The notes under the pieces are model-generated. The model worked only from the letters and a program-made list of their open reading frames with translations. It made no database searches and was not told the DNA's origin. The position numbers were made by a program, and so were the translations under genes. Source: Parapedobacter pyrenivorans (GTDB lineage: Bacteria > Bacteroidota > Bacteroidia > Sphingobacteriales > Sphingobacteriaceae). From it: DNA of 64,000 nucleotides. The stretch spans positions 62,001-126,000 of the forward strand of contig NZ_BMER01000001.1 of assembly GCF_014636865.1 (NCBI RefSeq). The letters are read 5' to 3'. Of this stretch, positions 22,018 to 44,760 are shown piece after piece; the stretch's first letter is position 1, and the number at the start of each line of letters is the position of its first letter.

Positions 22018-23211
22018 CTAGTCTATTTCCAGCAGGGTGCCGGCAATAAACCTCGTACCATTGTTGTGATTGAGGTAGTACGTGACCAGAACATGTTTGT
22101 TGTCAATTTGTACAGACCAAGGATAGCCAATATCTACACTCCCACCATCTTCCCTTAATATGATCTCAGGTGCCGTCATAAAGTCTGTGCATTCGGCATT
22201 GAGCACGCGGGCACGTATGCCATAAGGCTTATGCCGATAACCGTAAACCAACAAAACCCGATCATCCGGCAGCTTCAATGCTTGCAGCGGATGCCCCTTA
22301 AAACCCATGTTTTCCCATTTTCCAAACGTCCTACCTCCATCCGATGAGCGCGTAATGCACGTATAGTCATCAAGGTTAGCCGTTCGGTGAAAAACGACCA
22401 AGTCACCTTTTGGTGTTTCATATATGGAAGCTTCATTGAAGGCCACTTTATCATCCCTGGCAACGGTAGCCGCATAAGACCAGGTAAGCCCTTTATCGTC
22501 AGACATCAACAAGTAATTAGATGTCTTCCATGGAGAATTGGAGTCTGTTGCCGCCACTACCCAGAAGACGCGACCATCTTTCCCTTCAAAAAGCGCTCCC
22601 CGGTTGTATGCCGGCAGGGGGTTTCTAAACACATCATGATTGATTTCATTCGGGATATGCGGGGGATCAATGGGGCCTTGCCAGCTTTTTCCATCATCTT
22701 CTGATCGAAGGACATAGCCACCCAAAAAAACGGCTCCGCCAGCATAAAAGAAGGGCTTCTTTAAGGAATCCAACGCTTCCTCCCTAACGGGTGCCCAACC
22801 GTAGCTCGTGCAGAGCAGTGTACCGTCGCTTAATTTCAGTAAACAAGGATCTTGTGACCCACCAAAGGGATGCGCGTAAATCAGTTCCGGCTCGGCTGTC
22901 CAGGTTATCCCGTCTTCTGAACGAACCGCAACCAAGTAGCTGTTCGGATCGATGTGGTTGTACCCCGGCTCGCCGTAGTTTCTACGTTCGGGAGCACGGC
23001 GAAAAGCCAGTAAAAACGTGCCGTTCCGCATTTGAACTACAGAAGGAAATGTGGCATAGAATTTTGGATCTTCATAGATAACGATGTCCTTTACTTTGCG
23101 GATTCCAGCTGCATGACTTCCGTTTGCATTGCCCAGTTGACCAAAAACTACGATGCCTTTGAAAAAGAAAACAATGAAAACAATATACGGTAATATAATT
23201 CTAAAAGGCAT
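22018..23211 (-). CDS. Exported BNR-repeat (sialidase-like) protein
   Basis: A 397-residue six-bladed propeller with N-terminal signal peptide (IILPYIVFIVFFFKGIVVFG). Asp-boxes are seen as SEDGITWTAEP, SEDDGKSWQGP, SDDKGLTWSY and SSDGGRTFGKW. The start of the domain reads PSVVQMRNGTFLLAFRRAP rather than a clear FRIP motif. The C-terminal GFKGHPLQALKLPDDRVLL and GYPWSVQIDNKHVLVTYYLN are shared with the protein at 36494. Automated tools would say exo-alpha-sialidase, but the Arg triad is not evident by eye and the glycosidic target may differ. Confidence 0.82.
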   Translation of the reverse strand: MPFRIILPYIVFIVFFFKGIVVFGQLGNANGSHAAGIRKVKDIVIYEDPKFYATFPSVVQMRNGTFLLAFRRAPERRNYGEPGYNHIDPNSYLVAVRSEDGITWTAEPELIYAHPFGGSQDPCLLKLSDGTLLCTSYGWAPVREEALDSLKKPFFYAGGAVFLGGYVLRSEDDGKSWQGPIDPPHIPNEINHDVFRNPLPAYNRGALFEGKDGRVFWVVAATDSNSPWKTSNYLLMSDDKGLTWSYAATVARDDKVAFNEASIYETPKGDLVVFHRTANLDDYTCITRSSDGGRTFGKWENMGFKGHPLQALKLPDDRVLLVYGYRHKPYGIRARVLNAECTDFMTAPEIILREDGGSVDIGYPWSVQIDNKHVLVTYYLNHNNGTRFIAGTLLEID

Positions 23212-23581
23212 CTTGGTTATTTAATCAATGATTCAAAAGTAAAAAAAATATGGTTCGATTGAAACTTTCTCTCGCGGCACTGATGTTATTCAAGCTCCAG
23301 CACCAAATCTTCAATATACAACAGTGGCTCCAGTGTCAAGAATTACGTGCTTCAAGATTCACACGGCTGAAATCACAGTTGTTTCTATTTTCATTGTCTC
23401 GATGATAAAATTGGCTCTTTGGGTAGGGACATGCCTGATTGGCTACTCATGGTAGCGACAATCACTATAGCTATTACAATTTTATGCATTGTTGATACGA
23501 TTTTACGGCGTATGCGCTTTTCATTTGGATTATCGCCCCCTTAGGTGTAATTTAGCACCACTAACTTTATTGATCCGCATT
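23212..23581. other. Intergenic region between BNR and AraC genes
   Basis: Holds a -7-like TACTTTTG on the minus strand (23234-23241) for the BNR gene and the putative operator box at 23470-23508 for the AraC gene. Between about 23270 and 23400 the minus strand reads LTLEPLLYIEDLVLELE followed by a stop, with stops in neighbouring frames. This may be the tail of a lost gene, but no family can be named. Confidence 0.45.
23470..23508 (+). promoter_or_regulatory. Putative AraC operator box, copy 2
   Basis: Starts GCTATTACAATTTTATGC and ends GATACGATTTTACGG. It shares GCTATTACA, TG-ATT, and the trailing ATTTT-C-GG with the box ahead of ridA (58870-58909), and lies 73 nt before the intact AraC ATG. 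Autoregulation is inferred. Confidence 0.5.
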
Positions 23582-24457
23582 ATGAAAGCTGTAGAATACC
23601 GTCTGCCCAAGGAGTTTGACAAATCGTTTATTGTATTTACAGAGCGTGGCACCTATTTTCCCTGTCCTTGGCATTACCATCCAGAATACGAATTTGTATT
23701 GGTAAATAGGAGTACCGGCAGGCGCATGGTGGGTGACCATATCGGTTATTTTGATGAAGGCGACCTGGTGTTTATGGGTCCGGCGCTTCCTCACGTATGG
23801 GTCAACGATGCGGCTTATGTACAAGGCCAAGCCAAGGAAGAAGCCAGTGCGGTGGTCGTCCATTTCGTAGAAGATTTCCTGGGCAAGAACTTTCTCAGCC
23901 TTCCGGAATTGGAACCGTTAAAAAAAGTACTTGATTTGTCAAAACGAGGGTTGGTCATTACCGGAAAAACCAAGAAAGAGATCAATCGACGGATCAATGG
24001 CATGATCGGCGAAAGCGGATTGAGGCGACTTTCTTCGCTTTTTACCATATTTGACATCCTCACCCATAGTTCGGAATACCAGCCACTGGCCAGCCCTAGT
24101 TATATGCAACATACACAAGGCTATTATTCGGATCGGTTCAGCAAGATCACCGATTATATTCTACGGAATTTCCAACACGAAATATCACTCAATGAAGTCG
24201 CATCCGAGGCTAACATGGCCACGACCACGTTCTGCAACTTTTTCAAAGAACACTACCGGATGACGTTTGTGGAATACCTCAACACTATCCGTATTGGCCA
24301 TGTATGCAAATTATTGGCTGATAGCGATGAAAACGTGGTGAACATCGCTTATGAATGTGGGTTTAACAATTTGGCTAATTTCAATAGGCAGTTCAAGCGG
24401 CTGAAGGGGATGTCACCGAGTGAATACCGAAAAACCCTGGAGTTGCAATCGGCATAA
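23582..24457 (+). CDS. AraC-family transcriptional regulator (cupin + HTH)
   Basis: A 291-residue regulator. Residues about 20-110 form a cupin sensing domain (FPCPWHYHPEYEFVLVN, GDHIGYFDEGDLVFMGPALPHVW). The C-terminal 100 residues carry two HTH motifs (ISLNEVASEANMATTTFCNFFKEHY and VVNIAYECGFNNLANFNRQFKRLKG). The ATG at 23582 is chosen over an upstream in-frame start because two paralogous fragments begin at the same point. It is the only intact regulator inside the island and lies between its blocks, so it probably controls the catabolic operons in response to a sugar-like ligand. It is followed by a terminator. Confidence 0.9.
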   Translation: MKAVEYRLPKEFDKSFIVFTERGTYFPCPWHYHPEYEFVLVNRSTGRRMVGDHIGYFDEGDLVFMGPALPHVWVNDAAYVQGQAKEEASAVVVHFVEDFLGKNFLSLPELEPLKKVLDLSKRGLVITGKTKKEINRRINGMIGESGLRRLSSLFTIFDILTHSSEYQPLASPSYMQHTQGYYSDRFSKITDYILRNFQHEISLNEVASEANMATTTFCNFFKEHYRMTFVEYLNTIRIGHVCKLLADSDENVVNIAYECGFNNLANFNRQFKRLKGMSPSEYRKTLELQSA

Positions 24458-24470
24458 GTCAACAAGCATT

Positions 24471-24696: not shown

Positions 24697-25473
24697 TCAA
24701 GCATTCAACCCACCGTCCATTAAAATATTCTCTCCGTTGATGTAAGCACCCGCTTCCGAGGCGAGTAGCACAACCAGCCCTTTGATATCATCAGGGTTGG
24801 CCATCCGACCCATGGGAACTTTCTTACAATAGTTTTTTAGAAATTGTTCGGGTTGATTATTGAATAGACCGCCCGGGCTGATGCAGTTGAAGCGAACATT
24901 TTTTCCCGCATGTATCCTTGCCATGTAACGTGTCAGGTTGATGAGGCCTGCATTGTGAAAGAAATAATCCGGGGGTGGATCGCCCATTTCGGTACCTTCA
25001 TAATTGGACAAATCCGGGCCTTTCATCCCCATCATTGAGGCGATGTTGATAACACTCCCCCCCCCTGATCTAGCAATTAAACTGGTCATTTCGCGAAGCA
25101 AGTGGAACATCCCTGTGGCATTGTCCTGCATGGATTCGGCGAACTGTTCCAATGGAGCGTCGTACCCAACCATAGGACGTGAAACCGCATTATTAATAAA
25201 ACCGTCGAGCTTGCCGAATCGCTCAGTGATTTCCATTTTTAAGGCATACACTGTAACTGGTCGAGCTTGATCTACGGTAATCGCATGGACGTCAAAACCT
25301 CTGGATCGAAATGTTTCGGCTGTTGCTTCAGCGCTCTCCAACCGTCGCGACGTCGTGATTACCGTAGCATCGGCTTCCCCCAAACCTTCCAAAATGCATT
25401 GACCATACTTCCCCGAACCACCGGTAACGAGAATGACCTTATCTTTTAAGCTGAGTAGTTCCTTTACGTTCAT
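24697..25473 (-). CDS. SDR-family oxidoreductase with altered catalytic Lys
   Basis: A 258-residue SDR: VTGGSGKYGQCILEGLG (coenzyme loop), FINNAVSRPM, INIASMMGMKG (catalytic Ser) and the C-terminal GAYINGENILMDGGLNA. The expected YxxxK reads YFFHN (PDYFFHNAGLINL), so the catalytic Lys is replaced by Asn. Relatives in sugar-acid pathways (gluconate 5-dehydrogenase-like) normally keep it. It is the last gene of the long minus-strand run, 11 bp after the GH20 stop. The C-terminal tail matches the SDR remnant at 21722, so a paralogue once lay nearby. Confidence 0.82.
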   Translation of the reverse strand: MNVKELLSLKDKVILVTGGSGKYGQCILEGLGEADATVITTSRRLESAEATAETFRSRGFDVHAITVDQARPVTVYALKMEITERFGKLDGFINNAVSRPMVGYDAPLEQFAESMQDNATGMFHLLREMTSLIARSGGGSVINIASMMGMKGPDLSNYEGTEMGDPPPDYFFHNAGLINLTRYMARIHAGKNVRFNCISPGGLFNNQPEQFLKNYCKKVPMGRMANPDDIKGLVVLLASEAGAYINGENILMDGGLNA

Positions 25474-25484: not shown

Positions 25485-27542
25485 CTAGTCCATATCAAGC
25501 AATTCAGACAAAGGGGGAAGCCTTTCATCGCCGGGAATCTCCACCAATGTCTTTAAACGATTTTGAATCCGGAACCAAAAATCAAGCTCTCGGTCAAATT
25601 TGGACATCGGAATTCCCAACCGATAGGTGGTATATTCGTTTAACCAAGCCTCCCGGAACATTTCTTTCGTCTCGACAATGACATCAAACATATCTACTGT
25701 CAGTGATGAGAAAAATGCGGTTGCTTCTGCCAGCACCCTCCTGAATTCTGTAGGATCTCTTTTTTCTTGATACTTTTCGTGGATGTCACTAATCCTCCCA
25801 GCAAAAAGATACCTCATCGTTAGCATATCCAGTTCTCTTGCTCCCGTGAGCATAGCAAATAGCGTTGTAGAATCTACTTGATGTGGCAGCGCTTGTCTCA
25901 AAAGAATTTGTGCTTCTTCACTAGCCAGTCTTGCCGATTTGAGTTTATCTTTATGGTTTCGTACTATTTCAAGTGACTTTTCCGAAAATGGATTATCCCA
26001 TAGCGCATTTGTGGTTGATCCCAGTGCGCTTCTTGTTAATCTATCTGCTTTCGACAACTCCAAATGAGCTTGCTTGACAATATCGGATAAAACAGCAGGG
26101 TATAAAATAGTTGTATACCTATTAAAAAAATCACTTTCACCTATCTCCACATTATTCCAAGCAACCGATGAACCGTATGCCATATCTGGCCGAGAAGAGC
26201 GCATCAATACCTGCGAATCATCCGTCCAACCAGAATTAATAAATCCTCGTGCTCCATACTTCATCCCTTCATTCAACAATAAGCGGTGATTACGAAATGA
26301 AACACTTGTCGCGGGATACAAAAACTTCCAATTCAACGTGGCTGATTGGACGAATATGGGTACCTCGAACTGTTTAAATGGTTCCAAAAATTCACGATAC
26401 GCTTCTTCTTTTAATGGGCTGTAGTGCCAAGCCACCAAGATGTTATTACTAAGTTTATTTGAAATTGCATTTGGGTACTTCTGAAGCATATCTGCATACA
26501 GCATTACCTTTTTACCTTTCGCTTCAACCATACTTGCTGTCCGCTCCAACATCTTCAAATAAACATCTTCGACGGTACTTCCTACCCTTTTTGCTTCCAA
26601 CTCGATCAACCAAGTTTCGTCAAACCCAATATGAAAAAAAGGACTCGGAAAAAGCTCAGCAAACTGCTTTACCCAATCCGATACGATAGCGTTAACGCGA
26701 GGGTCTGTGGCACTGAACTCTCTTCCGTAAGGGGTTGCAGCGAGGTCCGCATAGTGTTCATATTTAAAAAAATCATGAAGATGACCGTACAAATTCAGAT
26801 TAGGGACGATATCGATATGACGCTCCTCGGCGTAAGCAATAATGTCCTCCATTTGCTCTGTCGAAAAACGAGCATTCGGAATCAACAAGGGGTAACCTTC
26901 TAGTTCAATATTTGTTTCAGAATAGAAATAATATTGATTAGTTTTCCATAATGCCAAAAAATCCAACTGCCGCTTTATCTCATCAACTGTTGGAAACTGC
27001 ATATGTGTCATGTCCATCATAAACCCCCGATACGCCATTATAGGCCAATCTTCAACGGTAGCGACAGGGAAATAGGCCAATTCGTCTTCACCCACTACCA
27101 TCTGCCGAAGTGTTTGTACAGCATAATACAATCCTGTTGATGATTTTGCAGTTATCAAAATCCCCGTTGGCGTGATAGCTATTTGGTATGCTTCTCTCGA
27201 GTCTCGCCCTACTTTCTCGTCTAACTGGGGCGTAGACGGAGCGTCCGCGAGCTTTTTGAAGATAAGATTTGCAGAGGAAATTGACTTTTCATTTAATGCT
27301 ATTTCAACACCGCATTCCTCACGGATCATGCGAATAAGTTCATTAGCTGTAAAGATATCTTCCTCCGATGGGGATTTTTCAAAGCCTATCGACAGTTGTG
27401 AGATTGACAATGTCCCCTCACCGAACTGAATATACTGGGGAACGGGAAGAATAGGATTCTTATCACTCGCCACCGCCTGATTTCCAACGGAAAGCACTGA
27501 TAGGGTAAATAATACTAAAAATCGATTTTTAACGTGTTTCAT
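25485..27542 (-). CDS. GH20 beta-N-acetylhexosaminidase-like protein
   Basis: A 685-residue exported glycosidase. After a signal peptide (to about residue 26) comes a GH20b-type N-terminal domain (about 30-150). The TIM barrel begins near YRGFMMDMTHMQFPT, and the catalytic Asp-Glu pair is in HIGFDETW (308-309), where the family consensus is HxGGDE. A helical C-terminal region of about 180 residues follows. GH20 enzymes remove terminal GlcNAc/GalNAc by substrate-assisted catalysis, implying an N-acetylhexosamine in the target. It lies 27 bp downstream of the FucP-type porter gene, a natural partner for import of the released sugar. Confidence 0.85.
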   Translation of the reverse strand: MKHVKNRFLVLFTLSVLSVGNQAVASDKNPILPVPQYIQFGEGTLSISQLSIGFEKSPSEEDIFTANELIRMIREECGVEIALNEKSISSANLIFKKLADAPSTPQLDEKVGRDSREAYQIAITPTGILITAKSSTGLYYAVQTLRQMVVGEDELAYFPVATVEDWPIMAYRGFMMDMTHMQFPTVDEIKRQLDFLALWKTNQYYFYSETNIELEGYPLLIPNARFSTEQMEDIIAYAEERHIDIVPNLNLYGHLHDFFKYEHYADLAATPYGREFSATDPRVNAIVSDWVKQFAELFPSPFFHIGFDETWLIELEAKRVGSTVEDVYLKMLERTASMVEAKGKKVMLYADMLQKYPNAISNKLSNNILVAWHYSPLKEEAYREFLEPFKQFEVPIFVQSATLNWKFLYPATSVSFRNHRLLLNEGMKYGARGFINSGWTDDSQVLMRSSRPDMAYGSSVAWNNVEIGESDFFNRYTTILYPAVLSDIVKQAHLELSKADRLTRSALGSTTNALWDNPFSEKSLEIVRNHKDKLKSARLASEEAQILLRQALPHQVDSTTLFAMLTGARELDMLTMRYLFAGRISDIHEKYQEKRDPTEFRRVLAEATAFFSSLTVDMFDVIVETKEMFREAWLNEYTTYRLGIPMSKFDRELDFWFRIQNRLKTLVEIPGDERLPPLSELLDMD

Positions 27543-27569: not shown

Positions 27570-28847
27570 CTATCTATTTCGTGACCAACTGGTATACTTA
27601 TGGCCCCATACCGCATAAAACAATAAAATAAGATAACAAGGCACCAATAACAATACCGATACTTGAGGATAAGTTGTGTTCACATCAATCAATCTGCCAA
27701 AAATCAGTGGGAAGATGCCCCCGCCTACCACTGCCATTAACAAGATAGCTGAGCCGATTTTGGTATACCTCCCTAGACCCCGCAACGATAAGCCCCATAT
27801 CAACCCCCAAAGCATGGCTGCACCAAAAGCAGTGAAGATAAGTAGGTAGATTGAAACAACACCCTCCGTATAAAATGAAGCCAAACTCAGAATAAGTCCT
27901 AATACTGCACACAGCAACATTCCTCCTTGTTGGGTCAAATATTTCGGAATCAAAACAACACTAGCAATATATCCAAGTAACATCGCATACAATGAATACT
28001 GGATATAGACTCGTCCTTCTTCGATAGGTATGCCCAAGGCACGGCTATAAATAATGATTCCGTCAATAGGTAAGCCTTCGCAAGCGGTAGATACAAAAAG
28101 GCAGAGTACACCCAACAACAAATGAGGATATTGGAAAACAGTTGATTTTTGCGACCCGATATTCGACAATTCTTTTGTTTGCTCACTATCTGACTCGTTC
28201 ACCTCAGGCAGACGTGAAAAATATACCAGTACCGCCAGCAATAGGAGCACCGACGTGATAATTATATATGGCTTCACCACCTTTAGCACATAGTCATCTA
28301 GTATGGCAGTTACGGCCCCAGCATCTGCGCCTTCGATCTGTGTGATAATACTGTCTGCGTCCAATAAAAATACAGACCCTAACAACGTGATGCAAATTAT
28401 ACCAGCTAATTTATTTGCTAACCCCATAAAACCAATACGTTGTGCCGTACTTTCGATTGGGCCGATAACGGCTACATACGGGTTTACCGCCGCCTGCAAC
28501 AATGTGGTACCGCTACCGGTCACAAATAATCCGATTAGAAATAATGGAAAAGCACGCAAATAGGCCGCAGGTATAAATATCAGCGTACCTACAGCCATGA
28601 TAACAAGCCCTAACGCCATCCCCTTCTTGTAACCTGCCCATTGAAGTATTTTCGCAGAAGGTAACGAAAATGTAAAATATGCAATATAAATAGCGAAAGC
28701 AACAAGCGAAGCCTCCACATTACTCAGTTGCAAACAAATCTGAAAATACGGAATCAATATGCCACTTATCCATGTCAAAAAGCCGAACACAAAAAACAAT
28801 GATGCTATAACAGCCAGTGGATAATAATAAGAACGCGATTTGCTCAT
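27570..28847 (-). CDS. FHS-family sugar MFS transporter (FucP/NagP-like)
   Basis: A 425-residue, 12-helix MFS protein. The opening SYYYPLAVIASLFFVFGFLTWISGILIPYFQ and LQAAVNPYVAVIGP are typical of the fucose/GlcNAc:proton symporter group. An additional loop (about residues 155-180) is seen, as in NagP-like proteins. In company with GH20 it would take up a neutral monosaccharide, possibly N-acetylhexosamine, across the inner membrane. It is part of the long minus-strand run. Confidence 0.87.
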   Translation of the reverse strand: MSKSRSYYYPLAVIASLFFVFGFLTWISGILIPYFQICLQLSNVEASLVAFAIYIAYFTFSLPSAKILQWAGYKKGMALGLVIMAVGTLIFIPAAYLRAFPLFLIGLFVTGSGTTLLQAAVNPYVAVIGPIESTAQRIGFMGLANKLAGIICITLLGSVFLLDADSIITQIEGADAGAVTAILDDYVLKVVKPYIIITSVLLLLAVLVYFSRLPEVNESDSEQTKELSNIGSQKSTVFQYPHLLLGVLCLFVSTACEGLPIDGIIIYSRALGIPIEEGRVYIQYSLYAMLLGYIASVVLIPKYLTQQGGMLLCAVLGLILSLASFYTEGVVSIYLLIFTAFGAAMLWGLIWGLSLRGLGRYTKIGSAILLMAVVGGGIFPLIFGRLIDVNTTYPQVSVLLLVPCYLILLFYAVWGHKYTSWSRNR

Positions 28848-28858: not shown

Positions 28859-30019
28859 CTATGATTTTGGCTTAAGGTACGTGTCTCCAATTTCTTCAAA
28901 TATTGTTCTGATTATACCCTCGTAACCAGTGGCATAATTTCTCATTCCATAATCTGTCGGGTGGGTGCCATCCACCGTACATTCCTGACAAATTCCAAGT
29001 GCAGATTTAGTCAGCATATAGACGCGAGACGCGCCCTCATTTTCCAGGTCGTGCACAACGCGCTCCAGCACGTTATTCACTCGATCCACCCGCCGCTTTT
29101 CTTCAACATTATAGATCTCGTCTGCCAGCCCCGGATGCTGCGTAAACAAAATAGGCGTTTCGGCATGGGCCTCACGTAGCTTCCTATATGCATTCCTAAT
29201 ACGCTGTTCGATGATTGTATCCGGAAAATTAACCTCATTTAACATATTCCCCATGCAATCAACAACATAAAGGTCCGCATCTATTTCCTCCACCAAATCT
29301 ATAAGCTCGGATTCTATACGACCGTTATCGGAAAACCCTAAATTAATAATCGGCTTATCGATAGCGCGTTGCAATACAGATGTCCAAGCTAAACCAGGTC
29401 TGGAAACACAAGCTCCTTGCGTTTTTGATGTACCGTAAACCACAATAGGTTTACTGGCCGACTTATCTACACCTACTACACGTGCGTGCTGATTTAAGCC
29501 AATCTCCAACCATTTCACGGTGTTATACAGCGGTAGGTAAAGCCGGTAATGTCTGAGCCTATTTTTAACAGTGGGTATTCCTTCCAAATTCGAATACTGA
29601 AATCTGATAGTATCCTGAAAAGCATACTTCGATCTACACCATATCGGATTCATCAGATCATCAAAAGCGTATAAATCTACGCCACTCACGCCGGTAGCCG
29701 CCATATGATACATATATAATCTGCCTTCAACTTGGTACCGAACTTCGATTTGGGCAGCGTCTGTATAAAACTCTATACAAACACCAGAAGAATTACGAGA
29801 GAGGTTCCATACGCCCGGTCTTACAGTACGTTGGGCTTTTGCTGGCAGCCGGTCAAAAGGGTTCGCCAGCTGGTCATTATTCCATCCTTGTCCAGAAATC
29901 AAAAACGCGCCATCAGTGATAGGGTTATACCACCGTAAATCTGCCTTCGATTCCTGAGCGTTCAGATCCGAATAGCAAAACCATATCGCAAACAAAAAAA
30001 TCATACGAGCCGATTTCAT
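28859..30019 (-). CDS. Exported SGNH/GDSL hydrolase
   Basis: A 386-residue esterase-type protein with signal peptide (MIFLFAIWFCYSDLNAQ). An N-terminal jelly-roll (about 30-170) precedes the SGNH domain. Block I is VVYGTSKTQGACVSRPGLAW (nucleophile Ser), block II LGFSDNGRIES, block III VVDCMGNM (Asn) and block V DGTHPTDYGM (Asp/His). Such enzymes remove O-acyl groups from glycans. The ATG at 30019 is preferred over a GTG at 30031. In the run it would deacylate the substrate before GH20 or BNR enzymes act. Confidence 0.85.
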   Translation of the reverse strand: MKSARMIFLFAIWFCYSDLNAQESKADLRWYNPITDGAFLISGQGWNNDQLANPFDRLPAKAQRTVRPGVWNLSRNSSGVCIEFYTDAAQIEVRYQVEGRLYMYHMAATGVSGVDLYAFDDLMNPIWCRSKYAFQDTIRFQYSNLEGIPTVKNRLRHYRLYLPLYNTVKWLEIGLNQHARVVGVDKSASKPIVVYGTSKTQGACVSRPGLAWTSVLQRAIDKPIINLGFSDNGRIESELIDLVEEIDADLYVVDCMGNMLNEVNFPDTIIEQRIRNAYRKLREAHAETPILFTQHPGLADEIYNVEEKRRVDRVNNVLERVVHDLENEGASRVYMLTKSALGICQECTVDGTHPTDYGMRNYATGYEGIIRTIFEEIGDTYLKPKS

Positions 30020-30046
30020 CACTGTAAACACATTCTACTACTTTAA

Positions 30047-30992: not shown

Positions 30993-31781
30993 TTACCAGC
31001 ACGTCCATCCGCCGTCCACCTGGATATTCTGTCCGGTCACGTAACTGGCTGCTTCTGACATCAAGAAAGCAACAATACCCGCTATTTCTCCGCTTTGACC
31101 TACCCTCCCCATTGGACTCTTTTCGGCCAATCGCCGAACAAAATCGGGATGCTGTGTTTGAACCTGTGGATTAGGGAAAGGACCGGGCGATACACAGTTG
31201 CATCGAACGTTATCGCGCCCCCAATGAACGCTAAGGTATCGAGCCATTTGGATAACGGCAGCTTTTTCCATTCCATATTCTATTGGGTTCTTAGTCATCG
31301 GTTCTTCATAAACCGAGGGATAGGGAGTCACTATCCCGTACATGCTCGCAAACAACACAATACTACCTTTTCCAACTTCTGCCATGTGTCGGCCAACTTC
31401 TCTTGTCAACAAAAACGTACTGGCCAAACCGTCTTGATGAACCGACAATAAATCCGCCTCGTCGAGCATTTCCATAATCTTGCTAGTCGAAGAAAATGTC
31501 AAATCAACCAGGCCAAATGGCACTCCTTGTTGTCCGATTTGCTCCTGAACTACTTCCTTGACCTTCGAAGTATCGGATTTGTCTAACGACAACGGAACTA
31601 CCCCTGCTCCATCTTCCAGTTCATTTACAAACTTATGAGCACGTGTACCTCGATCAATACAAATGACCTTAGCGCCCATCACAGACAACAACTTGACTAC
31701 CGCTCCACCTAAGTAACCTGCACCACCAAACACCCAGATATCTTTGCCCGCTAAAGTAAAAATTTCCTTTGCTAAATGCAT
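30993..31781 (-). CDS. SDR-family oxidoreductase
   Basis: A 262-residue SDR: VFGGAGYLGGAVVKLL (coenzyme loop), VLFASMYGIVTP (catalytic Ser), YGMEKAAVIQMARYLS (YxxxK intact), CNCVSPGPFPNPQ and GQNIQVDGGWTCW. Its tail and the long insertion before YGMEK resemble the SDR at 24697, but here the catalytic Lys is present. It is between aldo/keto reductase and Gfo/Idh genes with gaps of 12 and 28 bp, so it probably works on the same sugar or sugar-acid route. Confidence 0.85.
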   Translation of the reverse strand: MHLAKEIFTLAGKDIWVFGGAGYLGGAVVKLLSVMGAKVICIDRGTRAHKFVNELEDGAGVVPLSLDKSDTSKVKEVVQEQIGQQGVPFGLVDLTFSSTSKIMEMLDEADLLSVHQDGLASTFLLTREVGRHMAEVGKGSIVLFASMYGIVTPYPSVYEEPMTKNPIEYGMEKAAVIQMARYLSVHWGRDNVRCNCVSPGPFPNPQVQTQHPDFVRRLAEKSPMGRVGQSGEIAGIVAFLMSEAASYVTGQNIQVDGGWTCW

Positions 31782-36493: not shown

Positions 36494-37690
36494 TTACTGA
36501 ACCTCCAAAATGGAACCACCGATATACCTAATCCCGTTTTTGTTATTAAAATAATAGACTACAAGCACGTTATTCCCATCCAACATAACAGACCATGGAT
36601 AACCTAAATCTGGAGTTCCGCCATCGTCGCGGATGACAAATTCCTCGGATTCCATATAATCGGTACATTCAGCATCCAAGACCCTTGCCCTGATACCATA
36701 CGGTTTGTGCCGATAGCCATAAACGAGCAGAACCCGGTTATCCGGAAGCCTAAGCGCTTGGAGCGGGTGCCCCTTAAACCCCATTGAGGTCCAACTTCCA
36801 AAAGATTTTCCACCATCTTCTGATACGGCCATACATGCTTGGTCTGCATGATTACTGGTTCTCATAAACGCCACGATTCTTCCAGTCGGCGTTTCATACA
36901 AAGAGGTCTCGTTAAATACAATCTTTTCGTCCGAAGCAATCTCGCTCTGATAATCCCATGTCTCCCCACCGTCATCGGATGCCAATAAATGTACTGAATT
37001 TGGGCTGTCGATGTCGGGTACTTTTCCGGTAACCGCCCAGAACATACGCCCGCTTTTATGTTCCAATAGTGCCCCACGATTGTAGGCAGGCAGCGGCTTA
37101 CCTGTCGGAGTTAACCGAGGTTCTAAGGGAATGGTCGGCGGATCATTCAGCTGTACCCAATGATCACCTCCGTCGTATGATTTGGTAATATACCCTCCTG
37201 AAAGTGCATGATCATCCCTAAAGGAATTCTTGTCAAACCAAGGCATACGTAGCGTATCTCCCCCCACATAAGACCACAAAAAACTGGCACATAAGATACT
37301 TCCATCACTTAACGGCAGTAAGCAAGGGTCTTGGGAGCCACCAAAGGGATGAGCAAAAAGCAACTTTGGCTTTTCGGACCACGTTGCTCCGCCATCTATT
37401 GATCGTACACTGACCAGACAAGCGTTTGGATCAATATGAATATTGGATTTCCTTCCATATAAAACCCGATTCGGCGCCCTTCTAAATGCAATAAACAGCT
37501 CCCCATTTTTCTTTCTAATGACAGAAGGAAAACTGGAGTAAAATGCGGTGTCCTTATAAATAACAAAATCTTTTAATTTGGTTAGTACCGAGCGAGAATT
37601 ATCCTGAGCCGGAGTGATACCTCCTCCTAGCAAAAGGAAAACTACGATAGCCCGAAGAATGGCACTAAAAAATACACCCTTACTATACAT
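36494..37690 (-). CDS. Exported BNR-repeat (sialidase-like) protein
   Basis: A 398-residue propeller with signal peptide (FFSAILRAIVVFLLLGGGIT). Asp-boxes: SIDGGATWSEK, SYDGGDHWVQL, SDDGGETWDYQ, SEDGGKSFGSW. The C-terminal half (GFKGHPLQALRLPDNRVLL, GYRHKPYGIRARVLDAECTD, GYPWSVMLDGNNVLVVYY) is nearly the same as in the protein at 22018. ATG 37690 is preferred over an upstream GTG at 37699. It is in the SusCD operon, directly after the acetyltransferase gene. Sialidase activity is possible but not shown by visible residues. Confidence 0.83.
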   Translation of the reverse strand: MYSKGVFFSAILRAIVVFLLLGGGITPAQDNSRSVLTKLKDFVIYKDTAFYSSFPSVIRKKNGELFIAFRRAPNRVLYGRKSNIHIDPNACLVSVRSIDGGATWSEKPKLLFAHPFGGSQDPCLLPLSDGSILCASFLWSYVGGDTLRMPWFDKNSFRDDHALSGGYITKSYDGGDHWVQLNDPPTIPLEPRLTPTGKPLPAYNRGALLEHKSGRMFWAVTGKVPDIDSPNSVHLLASDDGGETWDYQSEIASDEKIVFNETSLYETPTGRIVAFMRTSNHADQACMAVSEDGGKSFGSWTSMGFKGHPLQALRLPDNRVLLVYGYRHKPYGIRARVLDAECTDYMESEEFVIRDDGGTPDLGYPWSVMLDGNNVLVVYYFNNKNGIRYIGGSILEVQ

Positions 37691-37701
37691 GATTATCACG
37701 A

Positions 37702-38442
37702 TTACTTTGTATTTATATCCCTCGTATTATCCGAGTCACTAAGCCAGTCTTCCTTCCCAAAAAAATCTTCTATTCTCCAAGAATCGTCATCCCGATAACC
37801 ATTCCATAAATCCAATCCACAAAAAATCTGGACGGGGTCATTACGTTTGCCAAACCGAGCGGGCAGGGACTTATTCACACCCGGACAACCATATACCAAG
37901 GAATTTGACGGGACGTCTCTGATAACCGTAGTACCTGAGGCAACGAATACATTATCGCCAATCACGACACCAGGGTTAATCGTAACTCCACCTCCGATCA
38001 CTACGTTGTTTCCAACTTTTGGACCAGAAATACCTAGCTTGCGCATGGGAAACAACGCATTTAAAAAATGTGTTCCGGGCCCAATAAACACCATGTTTCC
38101 GATAACCGTTTGGCTGGGAATGTACACATTGGCCATAATTTTGACCCCCTTTCCAATAATCACCTTCCCTTCCAATGTACATCCATGCAAAATAACGACC
38201 CGATCGCCAATTATACATTGAGCACGAATCGTAACGTTGTGCCCACACGTAAAATAGTTGCCAATCTCAGTATCCGAATAAATAACGGCACCACTGTGAA
38301 TTAGTGGATAATCACCGAGCCGCAATGGTTCTTTCCAGTTCGTATATTTGTACCCCAACATCACGTTAGGCTCAATATGGGCCTGATTACCCACCGTACA
38401 ATTGCGCATATTTGGTGCATTAGCTTCCATATGGCTACTCAT
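37702..38442 (-). CDS. Left-handed beta-helix (hexapeptide-repeat) acetyltransferase
   Basis: A 246-residue protein made mostly of hexapeptide turns (about residues 8-190: IGNYFTCGHNVTI, IGDRVVILHGCTL, IGKGVKIMANVYIP, VGNNVVIGGGVTI, IGDNVFVASGTTV). This is the WbbJ/NeuD-type sugar O- or N-acyltransferase fold. Such enzymes normally serve glycan biosynthesis in the cytoplasm, so its place between susD and a BNR gene in a catabolic operon is unusual. ATG 38442 has AGGTGG at good spacing; ATG 38448 is the alternative. Both overlap the end of susD by a few bases. Confidence 0.82.
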   Translation of the reverse strand: MSSHMEANAPNMRNCTVGNQAHIEPNVMLGYKYTNWKEPLRLGDYPLIHSGAVIYSDTEIGNYFTCGHNVTIRAQCIIGDRVVILHGCTLEGKVIIGKGVKIMANVYIPSQTVIGNMVFIGPGTHFLNALFPMRKLGISGPKVGNNVVIGGGVTINPGVVIGDNVFVASGTTVIRDVPSNSLVYGCPGVNKSLPARFGKRNDPVQIFCGLDLWNGYRDDDSWRIEDFFGKEDWLSDSDNTRDINTK

Positions 38443-39910
38443 ATCCATCCACCTGTGTGACCAATGGTTCCAGATTCAATACGGAGGTAGGAATAGGGAA
38501 ATAAAGCAAATGCCGTTGGCTTTCCTTCCCTTGGAGTGAAGGAACCAGTTCAAAAGCTTTGTCAAACCGCACCAAATCCCACCAACGCTTAGCTTCAAAA
38601 CAAAGTTCCAACAAACGCTCTTTTAAGATTGCTTCATCATTTTCGGCTTGACTGCCGGTTACAAATTTATATTCATCGAAATGTTCTCCAAACGCCCGTT
38701 CGCGAACCGAATTAATCTCCTCCGATGGATCTTGGTTGAGAAGGTTTTTGGCCTCAGCAGCCATCAACAAGACGTCCGATAAACGGTATAATATAACGTC
38801 ATCCAAAAAGTACCTTACGCCCCCTTCTTCAAAACCTTTTCCTTTTAATGGGAAACTCGCATGGAACTTCTCCGTTCCATCCACCGTAGTGTATAACTCA
38901 TGAAACGTCGCATCCCGTCGTTGGTCATCCGCCTCGAATTGCCCTCGCAAAATCGCTGATGGAGAAAGAATTAAGTTACCGCCTGGCGTACCGATTATTT
39001 CTCTAGACTCCTGACTTGGATTACCCGCCAGCGCAAAAGAAGGCATATACATTTGGTTAAAGTAGTTATTCGACGCTTCGTCTTGAAAAAATCGAATTGC
39101 CATCAGGACTTCCTTGTTGCCTTTATTCGCATATTTGAATATATCTGAATAATCCGAAAGGAGCTGAACATCAGACTGACGAGCTTCAGTCGCAGCTGCT
39201 AACGCCTGTGTCGCATCATTTTCTCCTCCTCCCAAGCGTTTAGCAGTCCACAAATACACATCTGCTTTTAGCGCATTTACCGCAGGTTTAGACCACAAGT
39301 GTCGTCCGTCAGGGAACGAATTATCGGTAAACAACCCCAAAGCCGTTTCAATATCGGACTTTATCAAAGAGAATACCTCTTGCTCAGAAGACTTCGGCAA
39401 ATAAATCATAGCCGGATCCGCGTTTTCCGTTGGTAGAATCCGCAATGGAACCTCACCCCAAGTACGCACCATAATGAAATAACTGTATGCACGCATCGCA
39501 TATGCCTGTGCCAACAGATTGCTTTTCGTTGACTCATTGACAAACTGCACATTTTCTATGTGTTCAAAAATGAGGTTACACGTGTTAATTACCTTGTACA
39601 ACGTTGTCCAACCGGGCCCGGGAAGACTATAGGCATCTAAGAGGTTTCGGTGATACCGCTCATGTGTATCCCCAACTAAACCATCAGATTGAACAGATTC
39701 ACTACGCGCTTCACCAACCAACAATAAACCTAACTCAGCAAACCCCCTCAACTGATCATACATCCCCATTGTGGCTGAAGTGGCATCATCCTCTGTTTGC
39801 CAAAAGGAAGCATTACTAATGTTGCTAATTGGGGCAATGTTCAAATGTTTATCACAAGAACAAATAGCGAAAACTAACAAAAGCGAATATTTAAAAAAGC
39901 TATTTTTCAT
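38435..39910 (-). CDS. SusD/RagB-family outer-membrane glycan-binding lipoprotein
   Basis: A 491-residue lipoprotein: signal LLVFAICSC with lipid Cys at about 19, then the SusD N-terminal TPR-like region (SNASFWQTEDDATSATMGMYDQLRG, TLYKVINTCNLIFEHI, RAYSYFIMVRTWGEVPL). The C-terminal domain has the family ending RWWDLVRFDKAFELV and LLYFPIPTSVLNLEPLVTQ. It forms the lid of the SusC channel encoded 22 bp upstream and binds the imported oligosaccharide. Confidence 0.93.
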   Translation of the reverse strand: MKNSFFKYSLLLVFAICSCDKHLNIAPISNISNASFWQTEDDATSATMGMYDQLRGFAELGLLLVGEARSESVQSDGLVGDTHERYHRNLLDAYSLPGPGWTTLYKVINTCNLIFEHIENVQFVNESTKSNLLAQAYAMRAYSYFIMVRTWGEVPLRILPTENADPAMIYLPKSSEQEVFSLIKSDIETALGLFTDNSFPDGRHLWSKPAVNALKADVYLWTAKRLGGGENDATQALAAATEARQSDVQLLSDYSDIFKYANKGNKEVLMAIRFFQDEASNNYFNQMYMPSFALAGNPSQESREIIGTPGGNLILSPSAILRGQFEADDQRRDATFHELYTTVDGTEKFHASFPLKGKGFEEGGVRYFLDDVILYRLSDVLLMAAEAKNLLNQDPSEEINSVRERAFGEHFDEYKFVTGSQAENDEAILKERLLELCFEAKRWWDLVRFDKAFELVPSLQGKESQRHLLYFPIPTSVLNLEPLVTQVDGYE

Positions 39911-39932: not shown

Positions 39933-42900
39933 TTAAAGTGTTATTTTCAAACCCATAATAAAATTCCGGGGGATGGGGTAGCGTCCATTATCCTGGCCGC
40001 CCTCTTCCGGATTCACGCCTTTGTACTTGGTGAAATAATGAAGATTGTTGCCCGTAACATAAATACGCACATTATTGATGTTAATACGGTTTAATGCAAT
40101 TCTTCCAATATTATAATTTAGGGTAACCTCTCTGATGTTCAAAAAATCACCTTTTTCGTAATATCTTGAGTATATTGCCAACCAGGGTCCCTGTGGAATA
40201 TAAACGGGCATATGCGTTATATCGCCTTGTTGCTTCCATGAGTGGGCCGCCATTTCCTTAGACGTATTCACATCGCCCTGCCCGTTTCGGTCAAAAAAAA
40301 GCTGGGGATAATTGTAAATCGTGTGACCCGTGGTATAGTCTAATCTTAAGTAAAACTCGAAATTTTTATACGCAACGGTACTTGAGAATCCGCCATTCCA
40401 AACGGGATAAGGATTGCCCATGTATACTTGATCGTATGCATCGATAAGCCCATTGCCGTCTACATCTAAAAGCTCGATATATCCACCATAACTTGTTTTG
40501 TCGTTGCCTGTGATAAACGTATTCACAGGCCCCAGTGCCGCTTCTTCATCTGTTGGATATATGCTCACTTGCTTATGTGAATAGAAATCTCCTATCCTCC
40601 CTCCCTCCTGAAGCCCCCCAAACCATCCGTAGTCACCTTTCTCAGGATCCCAAATATTCACGCCCCCAACCCGGTTATTTTCGATGCCGTTTTCGGGAAG
40701 CTTTAATATCTTGTGCTTCGTTTTGGACGCTAAAAAGGATGCCCGCCATTTAACTTCGCTGTTAACTGGTAAAATATCAGCGGAAAGTTCTAATTCGATT
40801 CCCCTGTTTTCTAAACTCCCAAAATTGGTGGCAATGCTTGTAAAGCCAGTAGAGGGAGGAAGGGTGAGGTTCGTAATTAAGTTATCGGTGATGCGCCGGT
40901 AGATATCAGCAATTAACGTGATCCGGTCATTAAACAAACCTAAATCTATTCCGCCATTGAGCGTCTTAGATCGCTCCCACTGTAACTCATTATTTGCCAA
41001 TACCGTATTCTGAATGCTGGGCTGACCTCCGTACCTACCCTGCACGGCGTAAACGCCTTGGGCTTGGTACCAGCCCAATCCGCTGATATTGCCATTGACC
41101 CCATAACTCCCACGCAATTTCAACCGGAGTAAGTCCGCTAACGATGAGGATTTCCAAAATTCCTCGTTGTGCATATTCCACCCCACAGAGATACCCGGGA
41201 AAAAGCCCCATCGATTGTCCGTTCCTAAGTTTGATGCACCATCGTACCTTGCGTTGAGTGTGATGAGGTATTTATTGTCAAAATCATAGTTCAAACTACC
41301 GAAATAACTGAGCATAAGGAACTCCGTAATGGTGCCACTAACCGCCTGTGGCGTGGCGGAAGCATTTAACGTCGGTATCAAATCAGTAGCCGCATCCCGA
41401 CCGGTCGCACTCATCCCACTTCTATTCTCATTAAAATAGGAAAACCCTGCGGTAACATCAAAATTATGAGCAAGAAAGCCTTTATTATACTGCAACAACA
41501 AATCAGCCTGCCGCACGGTGGATTTTGAATAAATTCCCGTAGCAGTCCTCGTATTTACGAGCCTTGTTGGCCCGTCCCAATAAGCTGGGATAAAGGAATA
41601 CGCTTCGTCCGATGTTCGAAACAAGGAAAGCCGGGGCCTAAAGTTGAGGCCGTCAATGATCTTCCAATCCGCACCGGCTGAGACGCTCAGTTTTTCATTG
41701 GTGTTTTGGTTGAAATCATTATTCATGTAGTAAGCCATGTTCCCAATAGTACGTCCTTGCCCCGGCGCCAACGTACCATCCTCAAACGTATACTTGGTTG
41801 TGGGAGGTAGCCCAACAGACCTGTAAAAAATAGCGGTGTAGTTATAAGGAGCATTATCTGATGAATTGGTGTACATACTATTCGCATGAAACTTAAGCCG
41901 ATCTGACAAGGAGATTTCACCCCCTAAATTCAAGCTAAGCCGATCGTATTCGGTGGTTATTACCGCGCCCTCATTTTGCAAATAGCCAATACTGGCGTTA
42001 AATTTAGCTGATTCACTTCCGCCCATTAAAGAAACGTGGTGGTTTGCGGTCTGGGCAGTCCTGTATAACACATCCTGGAAGTCAGTTTCTTTAAAAATGA
42101 TCGTTTTAGACGGGTCGGTTGGATCAACCATGCTTTGCCAACCCTCATTCAGCTTGTGCCGATTTTCGTCAGTTAGGTACTGTGGGGTGAATGCTGTATT
42201 TTTCGTTAAGTCGTTGCCCGTACCATAACCATTGGGCAATGCCAGTTTGGCGCTTGAGTTTGGCGTATATTTATCCTTGAGTATCAAGCCGGTTCTATTC
42301 AAGCTAATGTACTCTTCCGCAGATGCAAACTCGTACAATTTGGATGGATTTGAGATCGTATGACTGTAATTATAACTCACATTTACACTACCCGCTTTCG
42401 CTTTGACCGTCTCTACGATCACTACACCATTGGATCCACGAGCCCCGTATATAGCCGTCGATGCCGCATCCTTCAACACATTGATAGAGGCAATGTCTTG
42501 CGCATTAACATCAGTCAAACTTGAACGGATAACGCCATCGACGATATATAGTGGCTGGGCACCACCGGGGTTATTAATCGATGTACCACCTCGGACGATG
42601 ACTTTGGGTGCCGCCCCCGGCTGCCCGTGCGTTGTCTGCACTTGTACCCCGGATACGGCACCTTGCAATGCAGAAGCAGCGTTCGAAAATGGCACATTCT
42701 CCAGAACCTTGGTATCTATTTTGGAGATTGCGGTCGTGGTTTTATCCCGTGACTGTGTACTATATCCGACCACTAAAACTTCATCCAGCTTTTGCTCTAG
42801 GTAATCCAATACAACGCGTAGGTCATCTTTCCCTTCTGTATCAACCTCTTTTGAATCCATTCCGGTATACGAAAAAACCAACCACCGATTACCACCCTGC

Positions 42901-43109
42901 TTTATAATGGAGAAATTGCCATTTGCATCTGAGAGGGTTGAAGCGTTAGCATTTTTCCATTTCACCGTAACACCTGACAACGCAGCGCCATCCTTGCCAA
43001 TCACATTGCCTTTAATCGTTGTTTGAGCAAACGATCGAGTGGAAAAAAATGTAAGTGCAGTAATAAGAAGCGCAATTACATGTAGCGGGCCCAATCTGTT
43101 TTTAACCAT
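39933..43109 (-). CDS. SusC/RagA-family TonB-linked outer-membrane transporter
   Basis: A 1058-residue importer. After the signal (VIALLITALTFFSTRSFA) comes a carboxypeptidase-regulatory-like domain (TIKGNVIGKDGAALSGVTVKWKN). The plug domain follows (LQGAVSGVQVQTTHGQPGAAP, LYIVDGVI, VLKDAASTAIYGARGSNGVV), and then a 22-strand barrel ending PRNFIMGLKITL. The frame opens earlier at 43187, but that part overlaps the BNR lipoprotein gene; ATG 43109 directly precedes the signal. No N-terminal STN domain is present, so it is not a sigma-signalling transducer. It pairs with the SusD downstream. Confidence 0.94.
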   Translation of the reverse strand: MVKNRLGPLHVIALLITALTFFSTRSFAQTTIKGNVIGKDGAALSGVTVKWKNANASTLSDANGNFSIIKQGGNRWLVFSYTGMDSKEVDTEGKDDLRVVLDYLEQKLDEVLVVGYSTQSRDKTTTAISKIDTKVLENVPFSNAASALQGAVSGVQVQTTHGQPGAAPKVIVRGGTSINNPGGAQPLYIVDGVIRSSLTDVNAQDIASINVLKDAASTAIYGARGSNGVVIVETVKAKAGSVNVSYNYSHTISNPSKLYEFASAEEYISLNRTGLILKDKYTPNSSAKLALPNGYGTGNDLTKNTAFTPQYLTDENRHKLNEGWQSMVDPTDPSKTIIFKETDFQDVLYRTAQTANHHVSLMGGSESAKFNASIGYLQNEGAVITTEYDRLSLNLGGEISLSDRLKFHANSMYTNSSDNAPYNYTAIFYRSVGLPPTTKYTFEDGTLAPGQGRTIGNMAYYMNNDFNQNTNEKLSVSAGADWKIIDGLNFRPRLSLFRTSDEAYSFIPAYWDGPTRLVNTRTATGIYSKSTVRQADLLLQYNKGFLAHNFDVTAGFSYFNENRSGMSATGRDAATDLIPTLNASATPQAVSGTITEFLMLSYFGSLNYDFDNKYLITLNARYDGASNLGTDNRWGFFPGISVGWNMHNEEFWKSSSLADLLRLKLRGSYGVNGNISGLGWYQAQGVYAVQGRYGGQPSIQNTVLANNELQWERSKTLNGGIDLGLFNDRITLIADIYRRITDNLITNLTLPPSTGFTSIATNFGSLENRGIELELSADILPVNSEVKWRASFLASKTKHKILKLPENGIENNRVGGVNIWDPEKGDYGWFGGLQEGGRIGDFYSHKQVSIYPTDEEAALGPVNTFITGNDKTSYGGYIELLDVDGNGLIDAYDQVYMGNPYPVWNGGFSSTVAYKNFEFYLRLDYTTGHTIYNYPQLFFDRNGQGDVNTSKEMAAHSWKQQGDITHMPVYIPQGPWLAIYSRYYEKGDFLNIREVTLNYNIGRIALNRININNVRIYVTGNNLHYFTKYKGVNPEEGGQDNGRYPIPRNFIMGLKITL

Positions 43110-43155
43110 GCAGATATCCTTTTTTAATTTAAAAAAATATTGATTACTCAGTCGC

Positions 43156-44760
43156 TTAATCTGGGATGTTAAAATGTGTACTTGCAATGTGCGTAGTCAC
43201 ATAATCAGTGGTGTGATAGTACACACAGAATATCTTGCCATTGGGTAATTCAGTTACCATAGGATATCCCAAATCCGCCGGTGCGGCTTGACCATCTTTG
43301 CGGATTATCATTTCATTATCGACATCCCATGTCGTGCCATTATCGTCACTGACGGCAGCACGGATTCCCATCGGATACTCCCTATATCCATACACACATA
43401 GCAATCTTCCGTCATTGAGCTTAATTGCATCTGCAGGGAAACCTCGCATGTCCGTCTTGTTTGGAGTACTCCACGTCAACCCATCGTCAGTAGAGGTTGA
43501 GGACCACAAATTCCCTGTAGGTCTAGAACGCATGATGGCAATGATGTTTCCGTTGCCCGCCTGAACAAGAGCCGTCTCGTCAACACCCGTAATTTCAAGA
43601 CCTGAAATTCCGGCAGTTAACATCGGAAAACAATCCCATGTCTGCCCGTCATCATCAGATCGCAAGAAATAAATTTCAGATTTCCCTTCATTATTTAAGT
43701 TCACTTTCCTCCTGCCATAAACCGCACGCAACTTTGTGCCCGCGACTGTTGTAATATAACTTGCCGCTGAAGTATGGTTCATTAATCCGGACAATTCAAT
43801 GGGTATCGGAATGGGATCATGTTGTTGCCATGCAGTCGCAGTCGCAGATCGTCGAGATACCCTGGCGCCTCCTAGATATGCTATCGTCCCTGGTCTTACA
43901 TCCCGAACAACACGTTGCTCTGCGATAAGTGAATCTCTTAATGATTCATCAACGTAAATATAACCCTCGGCAGAGGCCAACAACAATGAGTCCGAAGCTT
44001 GGGTAAGCCAAGAGATATCATACATTGGGGATGTTGGAGTGCTCCAACCGTACCCTCCATCAGATGAAACCAGCGCCATGCTTCCTCCGGTATTATCAAT
44101 ATGGTCTCTCACAGCTTTGGTCGAAAAGCTTAATCCTAGTAGACCGCTATTCATTTTAAATAGGTTAGGGAAAGCGGCATAAACCGTATCATTTGAATAA
44201 ACAACTCGATGTTCAGCAGCATCAATATTAGCCGACTTTGCTGTATCCAACTTGCCCCCAACCAGCGTAAACTGCCTTGACATCGATTTATAACTAATTG
44301 TCTGTGGCCTCGTATGCCACCCGGCCGAAAAGTGGTAAACAGACGTATCCGGCCAGTCTGAAATATCAAACGAATAGGAAAACACATTTACGGTAGTATC
44401 CAAGTCCCTAATTCCGTTGTCGGTCAGATTATACGACTTACTTGGCAATGTGCTGCCATTTAGGTACCAATAGTTATTGGTGTGCATAAAAAAATCATCA
44501 ATATGCTCTGCAGACGTAAAGTCGTACATACGAAGCACAAAGGATCCTAACTCGACGTCATCTCCTTCTACTTCAAGTCTTAGATTCGTTGTGTTCTCGT
44601 CTACATGTGAAACTACTAATTCCTTGATACGAGGTGGCCCAGAATAAGGAGGTTCCGTTTCCTCTGCTTCTTCTATCGGAAAATACGTTTTCACACACGA
44701 AGAAACTGCCACCAAACAAGCTAATAGGAAAACAATTCTAATTTTGTACATTCTTTTCAT
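43156..44760 (-). CDS. BNR-repeat (sialidase-like) lipoprotein, first gene of the SusCD operon
   Basis: A 534-residue lipoprotein (VFLLACLVAVSSC, lipid Cys at about 22). An N-terminal beta-sandwich of about 140 residues precedes the propeller. Asp-boxes: SSDGGYGWSTP, SDDDGQTWDCFP, STDDGLTWSTP, SDDNGTTWDVD. The ending DLGYPMVTELPNGKIFCVYYH resembles the two other BNR proteins. It is placed before susC, so it is probably a surface glycan-binding or glycan-cleaving component. Confidence 0.83.
   Translation of the reverse strand: MKRMYKIRIVFLLACLVAVSSCVKTYFPIEEAEETEPPYSGPPRIKELVVSHVDENTTNLRLEVEGDDVELGSFVLRMYDFTSAEHIDDFFMHTNNYWYLNGSTLPSKSYNLTDNGIRDLDTTVNVFSYSFDISDWPDTSVYHFSAGWHTRPQTISYKSMSRQFTLVGGKLDTAKSANIDAAEHRVVYSNDTVYAAFPNLFKMNSGLLGLSFSTKAVRDHIDNTGGSMALVSSDGGYGWSTPTSPMYDISWLTQASDSLLLASAEGYIYVDESLRDSLIAEQRVVRDVRPGTIAYLGGARVSRRSATATAWQQHDPIPIPIELSGLMNHTSAASYITTVAGTKLRAVYGRRKVNLNNEGKSEIYFLRSDDDGQTWDCFPMLTAGISGLEITGVDETALVQAGNGNIIAIMRSRPTGNLWSSTSTDDGLTWSTPNKTDMRGFPADAIKLNDGRLLCVYGYREYPMGIRAAVSDDNGTTWDVDNEMIIRKDGQAAPADLGYPMVTELPNGKIFCVYYHTTDYVTTHIASTHFNIPD

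Follow-up and report, generated by a model that had tools for sequence, protein, structure and literature searches.

Sialidase-shaped proteins lacking the FRIP arginine in a polysaccharide utilization locus of Parapedobacter pyrenivorans: possible exo-glycosidases for an acidic sugar

Is a protein that is built like a sialidase, and lacks a hallmark arginine of sialidases, still a sialidase? The question is raised by a stretch of Parapedobacter pyrenivorans DNA (contig NZ_BMER01000001.1 of assembly GCF_014636865.1, positions 62,001 to 126,000; all 64,000 nucleotides are referred to hereafter as the window), which encodes three BNR propeller proteins, here called BNR-A, BNR-B and BNR-lip. An initial annotation had taken these for proteins of one type, without an obvious FRIP motif or arginine triad, that may be non-sialidase glycosidases, lyases or binding proteins. 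We find that BNR-A and BNR-B belong to a family that has the sialidase fold and most of the sialidase catalytic residues, and in which the FRIP arginine is missing from every member that could be read. Our tentative reading, to which we give a probability of about 0.45, is that BNR-A and BNR-B are exo-glycosidases for an acidic sugar other than N-acetylneuraminic acid (Neu5Ac), whose product would be imported and split by an aldolase, with BNR-lip as a binding protein.

An AlphaFold2 (AF2) model of BNR-A, built from 58 sequences, reached a pLDDT of 93, and both Foldseek and VIA-align ranked the PDB structure 5hx0 first (Z 62, rmsd 1.0, 68% identity over 365 residues). This is Dfer_1899 of Dyadobacter fermentans, deposited as a protein of 'unknown function'. 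It was also the best PDB match by sequence for BNR-A (E 5.8e-180, the next matches being sialidases at E ~1e-5), BNR-B (E 6.3e-134) and BNR-lip (E 4.7e-24); it matches BNR-A along its full length, in sequence and in structure, with the same active-site letters in the alignment. BNR-A, BNR-B and their relatives are therefore called the 5hx0 family below. The other 49 VIA-align matches listed (Z 33.0–35.7, 310–331 aligned residues) were all sialidases except for the designed protein 4j9t. The model, the Foldseek and VIA-align matches and the Asp-boxes together place the family in the Asp-box propeller fold of glycoside hydrolase family 33 (GH33), the exo-alpha-sialidases. The lyase option was dropped, as no lyase occurred among the structural matches listed and nothing found pointed to one. 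The Pseudomonas aeruginosa 'pseudaminidase' (PDB 2w38/3h6j) is a structural neighbour of BNR-A (TM score 0.61, only 16% identity), no closer to the 5hx0 family than ordinary sialidases are; it reportedly does not act on Neu5Ac, as is proposed here for the 5hx0 family. The 5hx0 structure has been public since 2016. No publication on Dfer_1899 or 5HX0 turned up in a literature search, and searches on pseudaminidase, sialidase triads, Kdo hydrolases, nonulosonic acid catabolism, GH93 and PF13088 gave none on the family among the matches listed (titles and abstract starts; for PF13088 the best 25 of 1,551).

The active site was read over 86 family members, in BNR-A numbering, after identical copies, proteins shorter than 300 residues or containing X, four divergent BNR proteins (22–24%), L103 and BNR-lip had been set aside. 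As a reference we used a GH33-like protein with a complete triad from the same genome (L007:1309-2481; contig 1 at 2722701). Profile-to-profile alignment by hhalign with this protein and its relatives reached a probability of 99.4 locally (residues 42–300); the global alignment reached 99.8, and one restricted to the C-terminal part 97.6. The local alignment paired Asp88, Glu260 and Arg276 with the acid/base Asp, the Glu and the second triad arginine (Arg2). In the global and C-terminal alignments Tyr363 fell on the Tyr nucleophile, and Tyr379 on the Glu that partners the first triad arginine (Arg1). Arg276, also aligned by hmmsearch, was present in 86 of 86 members, as were Arg71, His86, Gln120, Asp121, Glu260, Tyr323, Tyr325, Arg326, Arg353, Asp355, Asp360, Tyr363, Tyr378 and Tyr379; Arg204 (85/86), Arg333 (84/86), Asp88 (82/86) and Arg72 (81/86) were nearly so. 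The spacings agree with those of sialidases: Glu260–Arg276 and Tyr363–Tyr379 are both 16 residues apart, as are E238–R254 and Y347–E363 of the reference protein. The same two distances of 16 occur in the Oerskovia sialidase (R25, D49, E211, R227, R287, Y314 and E330 in the available part of PMC9782813). Of the seven GH33 active-site positions, the Asp, Glu, Arg2 and Tyr are kept; the family has lost Arg1 together with its Glu partner, which has become Tyr379 in all members, and the third arginine (Arg3) is unsettled, perhaps shifted. His86, Gln120-Asp121 and Tyr325-Arg326 are strictly conserved in addition to the residues shared with GH33.

The FRIP arginine of the reference protein faces a two-residue gap immediately before F-P, or Thr54 if the alignment is left ungapped. 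Position 54 is Ala in 43 members, Ser in 24, Thr in 16, Cys in two and a gap in one, so that arginine occurs in none of the 85 that could be read. Among 13 GH33-like control proteins, 11 had the FRIP arginine and 11 the Glu partner. The two controls without the arginine came from relatives, one at L113 and one, the second and weaker match there, at L107; the L107 protein also lacks most of the other catalytic residues. The absence of the usual FRIP motif was therefore seen correctly in the initial annotation. Its replacement by an AFRRAP-type sequence was not: in the profile alignment AFRRAP lies one strand further on, with AF aligned on AF and its arginines inside an insertion. The supposed lack of a triad holds for Arg1 and fails for Arg276, and two conserved arginines flank the third position.

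In the AF2 model, strands 51–60 and 66–74 of BNR-A adjoin, and Arg71 lies on the second. Arg1 and the Glu that partners it have disappeared together, and Arg71 on the adjoining strand is invariant; this suggests that the carboxylate-binding arginine has moved, and Arg71 and Arg72 may stand in for the FRIP arginine. Because the FRIP arginine is absent, the 5hx0 family is, on its sequence, not to be filed under GH33. Its members nevertheless act in all likelihood like GH33-type retaining glycosidases.

These results bear on whether BNR-A and BNR-B are sialidases after all, which would bind the Neu5Ac carboxylate by changed residues and cleave sialosides, the operon serving another sugar of the same glycan. 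A precedent exists in GH181. Akkermansia Amuc_1547 cleaves sialosides although one of its triad arginines is replaced by Gln (PMC10067855, available part), which means that the loss of a triad arginine is not enough to exclude sialidase activity. GH181 resembles the 5hx0 family in its GH33-like propeller, the replaced arginine and the 16-residue spacing of E218 and R234. In the same source it differs in having Q350/H349 in place of the Tyr nucleophile, which is Tyr363 in 86 of 86 members here, and GH181 is described as inverting, with a carbohydrate-binding-module-like domain (PMC10067855 and PMC12018670, available parts) that BNR-A and BNR-B do not have. The fold and the retained Tyr, Glu, Asp and Arg2 also speak for sialidases. 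We nonetheless regard this as quite unlikely. Arg1 and its Glu partner are both lost in every member read, and the genome already encodes the full-triad reference protein, and 4.7 kb from it lies a NanA/DHDPS-like gene that scores below the nanA cut-off. In the BNR operon nothing matches NanA or NanE; the initial annotation had reported none in the window, and the matches in the genome (nine listed to nanA, TIGR00683; one to NanE, PF04131) all lie outside it, all below cut-off.

The three proteins are not equivalent. Their open reading frames lie exactly where they had been placed, at 22018, 36494 and 43156 (Table 1), and all three exceed the Pfam cut-off for BNR_2, their sole Pfam family (16 BNR_2 matches are listed in the whole genome). 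No NCBIfam model scored above its cut-off for any of them. The Asp-boxes are as good as had been noted, with three strict copies in each protein and five (BNR-A), four (BNR-B) and four (BNR-lip) by a looser pattern that averaged 0.04–0.05 in 2000 shuffles, with a maximum of 2; the looser one at 358 of BNR-A overlaps the C-terminal GYP block and is probably no Asp-box. A shared C-terminal block with GYP and YY was likewise confirmed. This block also occurs in more distant relatives at locus L133, and so is no mark of a single type. BNR-A and BNR-B share 52% identity, whereas BNR-lip is only 28% and 25% identical to them and has about 140 extra N-terminal residues, which argues against three proteins of one type.

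BNR-lip keeps Asp222, Glu395, Arg411, Tyr499 and the Tyr514-Tyr515 pair. In place of Arg71-Arg72 it has Ser213-Thr214, Arg204 is replaced by Ala332, and Gln120-Asp121 fall opposite a gap; its residues 26–175 have a pLDDT below 50. Because it fails at Arg71 and Gln120-Asp121 it was not filed in the core family, of which BNR-A and BNR-B carry all invariant residues. Relatives that stand nearer to BNR-lip than the core family does are rare, with matches at E 1e-20 in three of 395 genomes of the class (its own, G451 and G228); at two of the three places matched in G451 the proteins belong to the core family. In G228 four BNR proteins stand in a row (L133:5263-12179), three of them about 600 residues long and BNR-lip-like; their neighbours are two enolase-superfamily dehydratases, a KDPG/KHG aldolase, a 2-hydroxyacid dehydrogenase and a GH36 protein. 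With its lipoprotein-like N-terminus and lost residues, BNR-lip is probably a surface glycan-binding protein, and to this extent the suggestion of binding proteins holds. It probably does not extend to BNR-A and BNR-B, which keep the catalytic residues. That all three are non-catalytic lectins would suit BNR-lip, which also adjoins SusC and SusD. For the set as a whole it is very unlikely: all 86 members of the BNR-A/B family, even those with identities as low as about 32%, carry the Tyr, Glu and Arg2 of the catalytic site, 82 of them also have Asp88, and a SusD like that of the window (at least 40% identity) was found at only 12 of 76 loci.

BNR-lip and BNR-B belong to a tight run of 15 genes that begins at 44760 and ends at 24697, its genes being spaced by −32 to 50 nt (Table 1). 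SusC adjoins SusD, with glycan-active genes, which by Pfam matches and spacing makes the run a polysaccharide utilization locus.

Table 1. BNR genes and their neighbours in the window; genes 1–15 are in operon order. Signal peptide and lipoprotein-like N-terminus were judged by eye.
Gene	Feature	Position	Strand	Remarks
1	BNR-lip	43156..44760	-	534 residues; lipoprotein-like N-terminus; divergent propeller
2	SusC-type TonB-dependent receptor	39933..43187	-	Pfam; longest reading frame, true start may lie further in
3	SusD-type lipoprotein	38435..39910	-	Pfam
4	Hexapeptide-repeat acyltransferase	37702..38448	-	Pfam
5	BNR-B	36494..37699	-	401 residues; paralogue of BNR-A, active-site residues identical
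6	Ceramidase-like (by eye), 532 residues	34853..36451	-	no Pfam family at E 1e-4
7	Major facilitator superfamily (MFS) transporter	33570..34802	-	best NCBIfam match D-galactonate transporter, below cut-off
8	HpcH/HpaI-type aldolase	32751..33548	-	nearest NCBIfam HpaI, GarL, 2-keto-3-deoxy-L-rhamnonate aldolase, all below cut-off
9	Aldo/keto reductase (AKR)	31794..32747	-	Pfam
10	Short-chain dehydrogenase/reductase (SDR) oxidoreductase, SDR2	30993..31781	-	Pfam
11	Gfo/Idh/MocA oxidoreductase	30047..30964	-	Pfam
12	GxDLY + SGNH/GDSL hydrolase	28859..30031	-	Pfam
13	MFS transporter, NagP/GluP/FucP type	27570..28847	-	Pfam, NCBIfam
14	GH20 hexosaminidase-like protein	25485..27542	-	Pfam
15	SDR oxidoreductase, SDR1	24697..25473	-	Pfam
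	AraC-type regulator	23489..24457	+	Pfam; between operon end and BNR-A
	BNR-A	22018..23211	-	397 residues; probable signal peptide; GH33 fold, 5hx0 family; alone, adjoins AraC regulator

The association of BNR and aldolase genes is not confined to this locus. Among 200 relatives the 5hx0 family was present in 10 (E 1e-20) and the HpaI aldolase in seven (E 1e-60; own genome included), six of which have the 5hx0 family (Fisher p 1.8e-8 with and 3.0e-7 without the own genome, not corrected for kinship). The aldolase gene lies within 10 kb of the BNR gene and on the same strand in five of these six genomes, and on another contig in the sixth. Four genomes (G005, G006, G057 and G111) have BNR followed by MFS, aldolase, AKR, Gfo/Idh and SDR1 in the same order and on the same strand, with SusC and SusD preceding BNR in the first three; in a Membranihabitans locus (G451), BNR occurs together with aldolase, AKR, Gfo/Idh and SDR1. 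In a single scan of genome contigs, from which the best 80 of 91 relatives were kept and 76 loci counted (L031, L065, L069 and L079 being left out), the aldolase occurred at 11 loci, near-identical Runella loci among them, always on the BNR strand. At least three of six core genes were present at 11 of the 76, two Runella loci being near copies. Flanks of 5 kb on both sides were available at 47 loci. The seventh aldolase genome (G008, of the same genus) has the HpaI aldolase, an MFS gene and a gene like that at 44969 beside ceramidase-like and BhcC-like genes (L140, 9755-19108); no BNR family member was found in it.

The combination of a D-galactonate-type MFS transporter, an HpaI/GarL/rhamnonate-type aldolase and an arginine-rich Tyr/Glu pocket favours an acidic sugar. 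We propose that BNR-A and BNR-B would be exported and would keep GH33 chemistry, with Tyr363 as nucleophile paired with Glu260 and Asp88 as acid/base, around a carboxylate pocket rebuilt without the FRIP arginine and its Glu partner, possibly with the arginines of the neighbouring strand. The terminal sugar released would be acidic and not Neu5Ac, with a 2-keto-3-deoxy (ulosonic) acid or some other sugar acid as the likeliest candidate. It could be taken up by SusC/SusD, carried inward by the sugar-acid-type MFS transporter, and split or oxidized by the aldolase, the AKR, the Gfo/Idh protein and the SDRs, while BNR-lip, a degenerate copy, would bind the glycan at the cell surface. The idea of a non-sialidase glycosidase is thus consistent with the missing FRIP arginine, with sugar-acid-type neighbours lacking NanA and NanE, and with an uncharacterized nearest structure; its premise needs amending, since the triad is not simply lacking.

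The same genes could serve a different substrate. BNR-A and BNR-B might be retaining glycosidases that act on a neutral or uronic sugar and use Glu260 as nucleophile, helped by the Tyr, and the aldolase might act on a 2-keto-3-deoxy aldonate made inside the cell. The missing Arg1 would agree with a substrate that has no C1 carboxylate, and the AKR, SDR and Gfo/Idh proteins with an oxidative route for a neutral sugar. GH93 enzymes reportedly use a Glu nucleophile, and BNR-lip gave a weak match to the exo-arabinanase 3a71 (E 0.24). We hold this to be doubtful, as Arg276 and several other arginines are invariant, and no sugar-acid dehydratase family was found among the 14 of 15 operon products with a Pfam match. 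The structural matches listed for BNR-A were of sialidase type, and GH93 appeared neither among them nor in the best 60 of 105 sequence matches, an absence that decides nothing.

Several points weigh against the proposal of an acidic sugar other than Neu5Ac. In the active site, the pairing of Tyr363 and Tyr379 falls outside the local hhalign match, the third triad position is flanked by Arg326 and Arg333 and not aligned column by column, and where Arg71/72 lie with respect to the pocket is derived from strand geometry in a model. GH181, which keeps sialidase activity without a full triad, leaves room for Neu5Ac as substrate. The transporter and aldolase models of NCBIfam matched below cut-off, and uronic acids or neutral deoxy sugars would be just as compatible with the set of dehydrogenases. 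At 65 of the 76 loci no such aldolase was seen (29 of the 76 have less than 5 kb on one or both sides), so that the pathway link holds for a subset only; the GH20 gene was found at none of the 76 other loci. Finally, no signal peptide was visible by eye in the distant proteobacterial members.

Those distant members offer a lead, and only a lead, to a nonulosonate substrate. Four gammaproteobacterial ones (L098:10073-11212, L099:2-1081, L100:1563-2717 and L101:6105-7259) have NeuB and PseG-like genes nearby, with DegT in L098, L100 and L101 and a cytidylyltransferase in L099–L101, on the strand opposite to BNR. The lead concerns four of 10 distant loci, forming one clade in a quick tree, with the genes on the opposite strand and no signal peptide visible by eye. 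A more specific version of our proposal, in which an orphan glycosidase family has moved its carboxylate arginine from the FRIP strand to the next (Arg71), is specific for a non-sialic 2-ulosonic acid such as 3-deoxy-D-manno-octulosonic acid (Kdo) or a bacterial nonulosonic acid, and uses an HpaI-type aldolase in place of NanA, is unlikely as it stands.

The BNR-A/B family is widespread, strongly conserved and functionally orphan, sialidase-shaped and without one hallmark arginine. Going by record titles, relatives of 50–70% identity occur in Bacteroidota, Verrucomicrobiota, Planctomycetota, Acidobacteriota, Hydrogenedentota, a Balneolota and an Acidimicrobiia bin, those of 29–37% in Pseudomonadota and a Paenibacillus, and one of 27% in a Chloroflexota bin; in the quick tree the family reaches eight phylum-level groups. 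Sialidase labels on such proteins, which carry only the general BNR_2 signature, are common in environmental genomes and could be corrected. The family would add a second rebuilt sialidase pocket beside that of GH181, and the Bacteroidota operons provide a ready list of pathway genes, so that substrate and route could be found.

Two further gene sets accompany the BNR genes. A cluster of 350-residue proteins recurs with the BNR gene at seven loci (L027:8779-9843 and six others); the one member tested matched nothing in Pfam and nothing convincingly in the PDB. Elsewhere in the window, 45993-58802 and 18791-20884 encode an L-2-hydroxyglutarate oxidase, a BhcC-like aldolase, two M19 dipeptidases, three 3-hydroxyacyl-CoA-dehydrogenase-like proteins, a Rid protein, a GntE/HemL-like transaminase and ceramidase-type proteins. 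Runella, Rhabdobacter, Spirosoma and Larkinella loci have parts of this set close to the BNR gene, which suggests a linked pathway for an amino compound.

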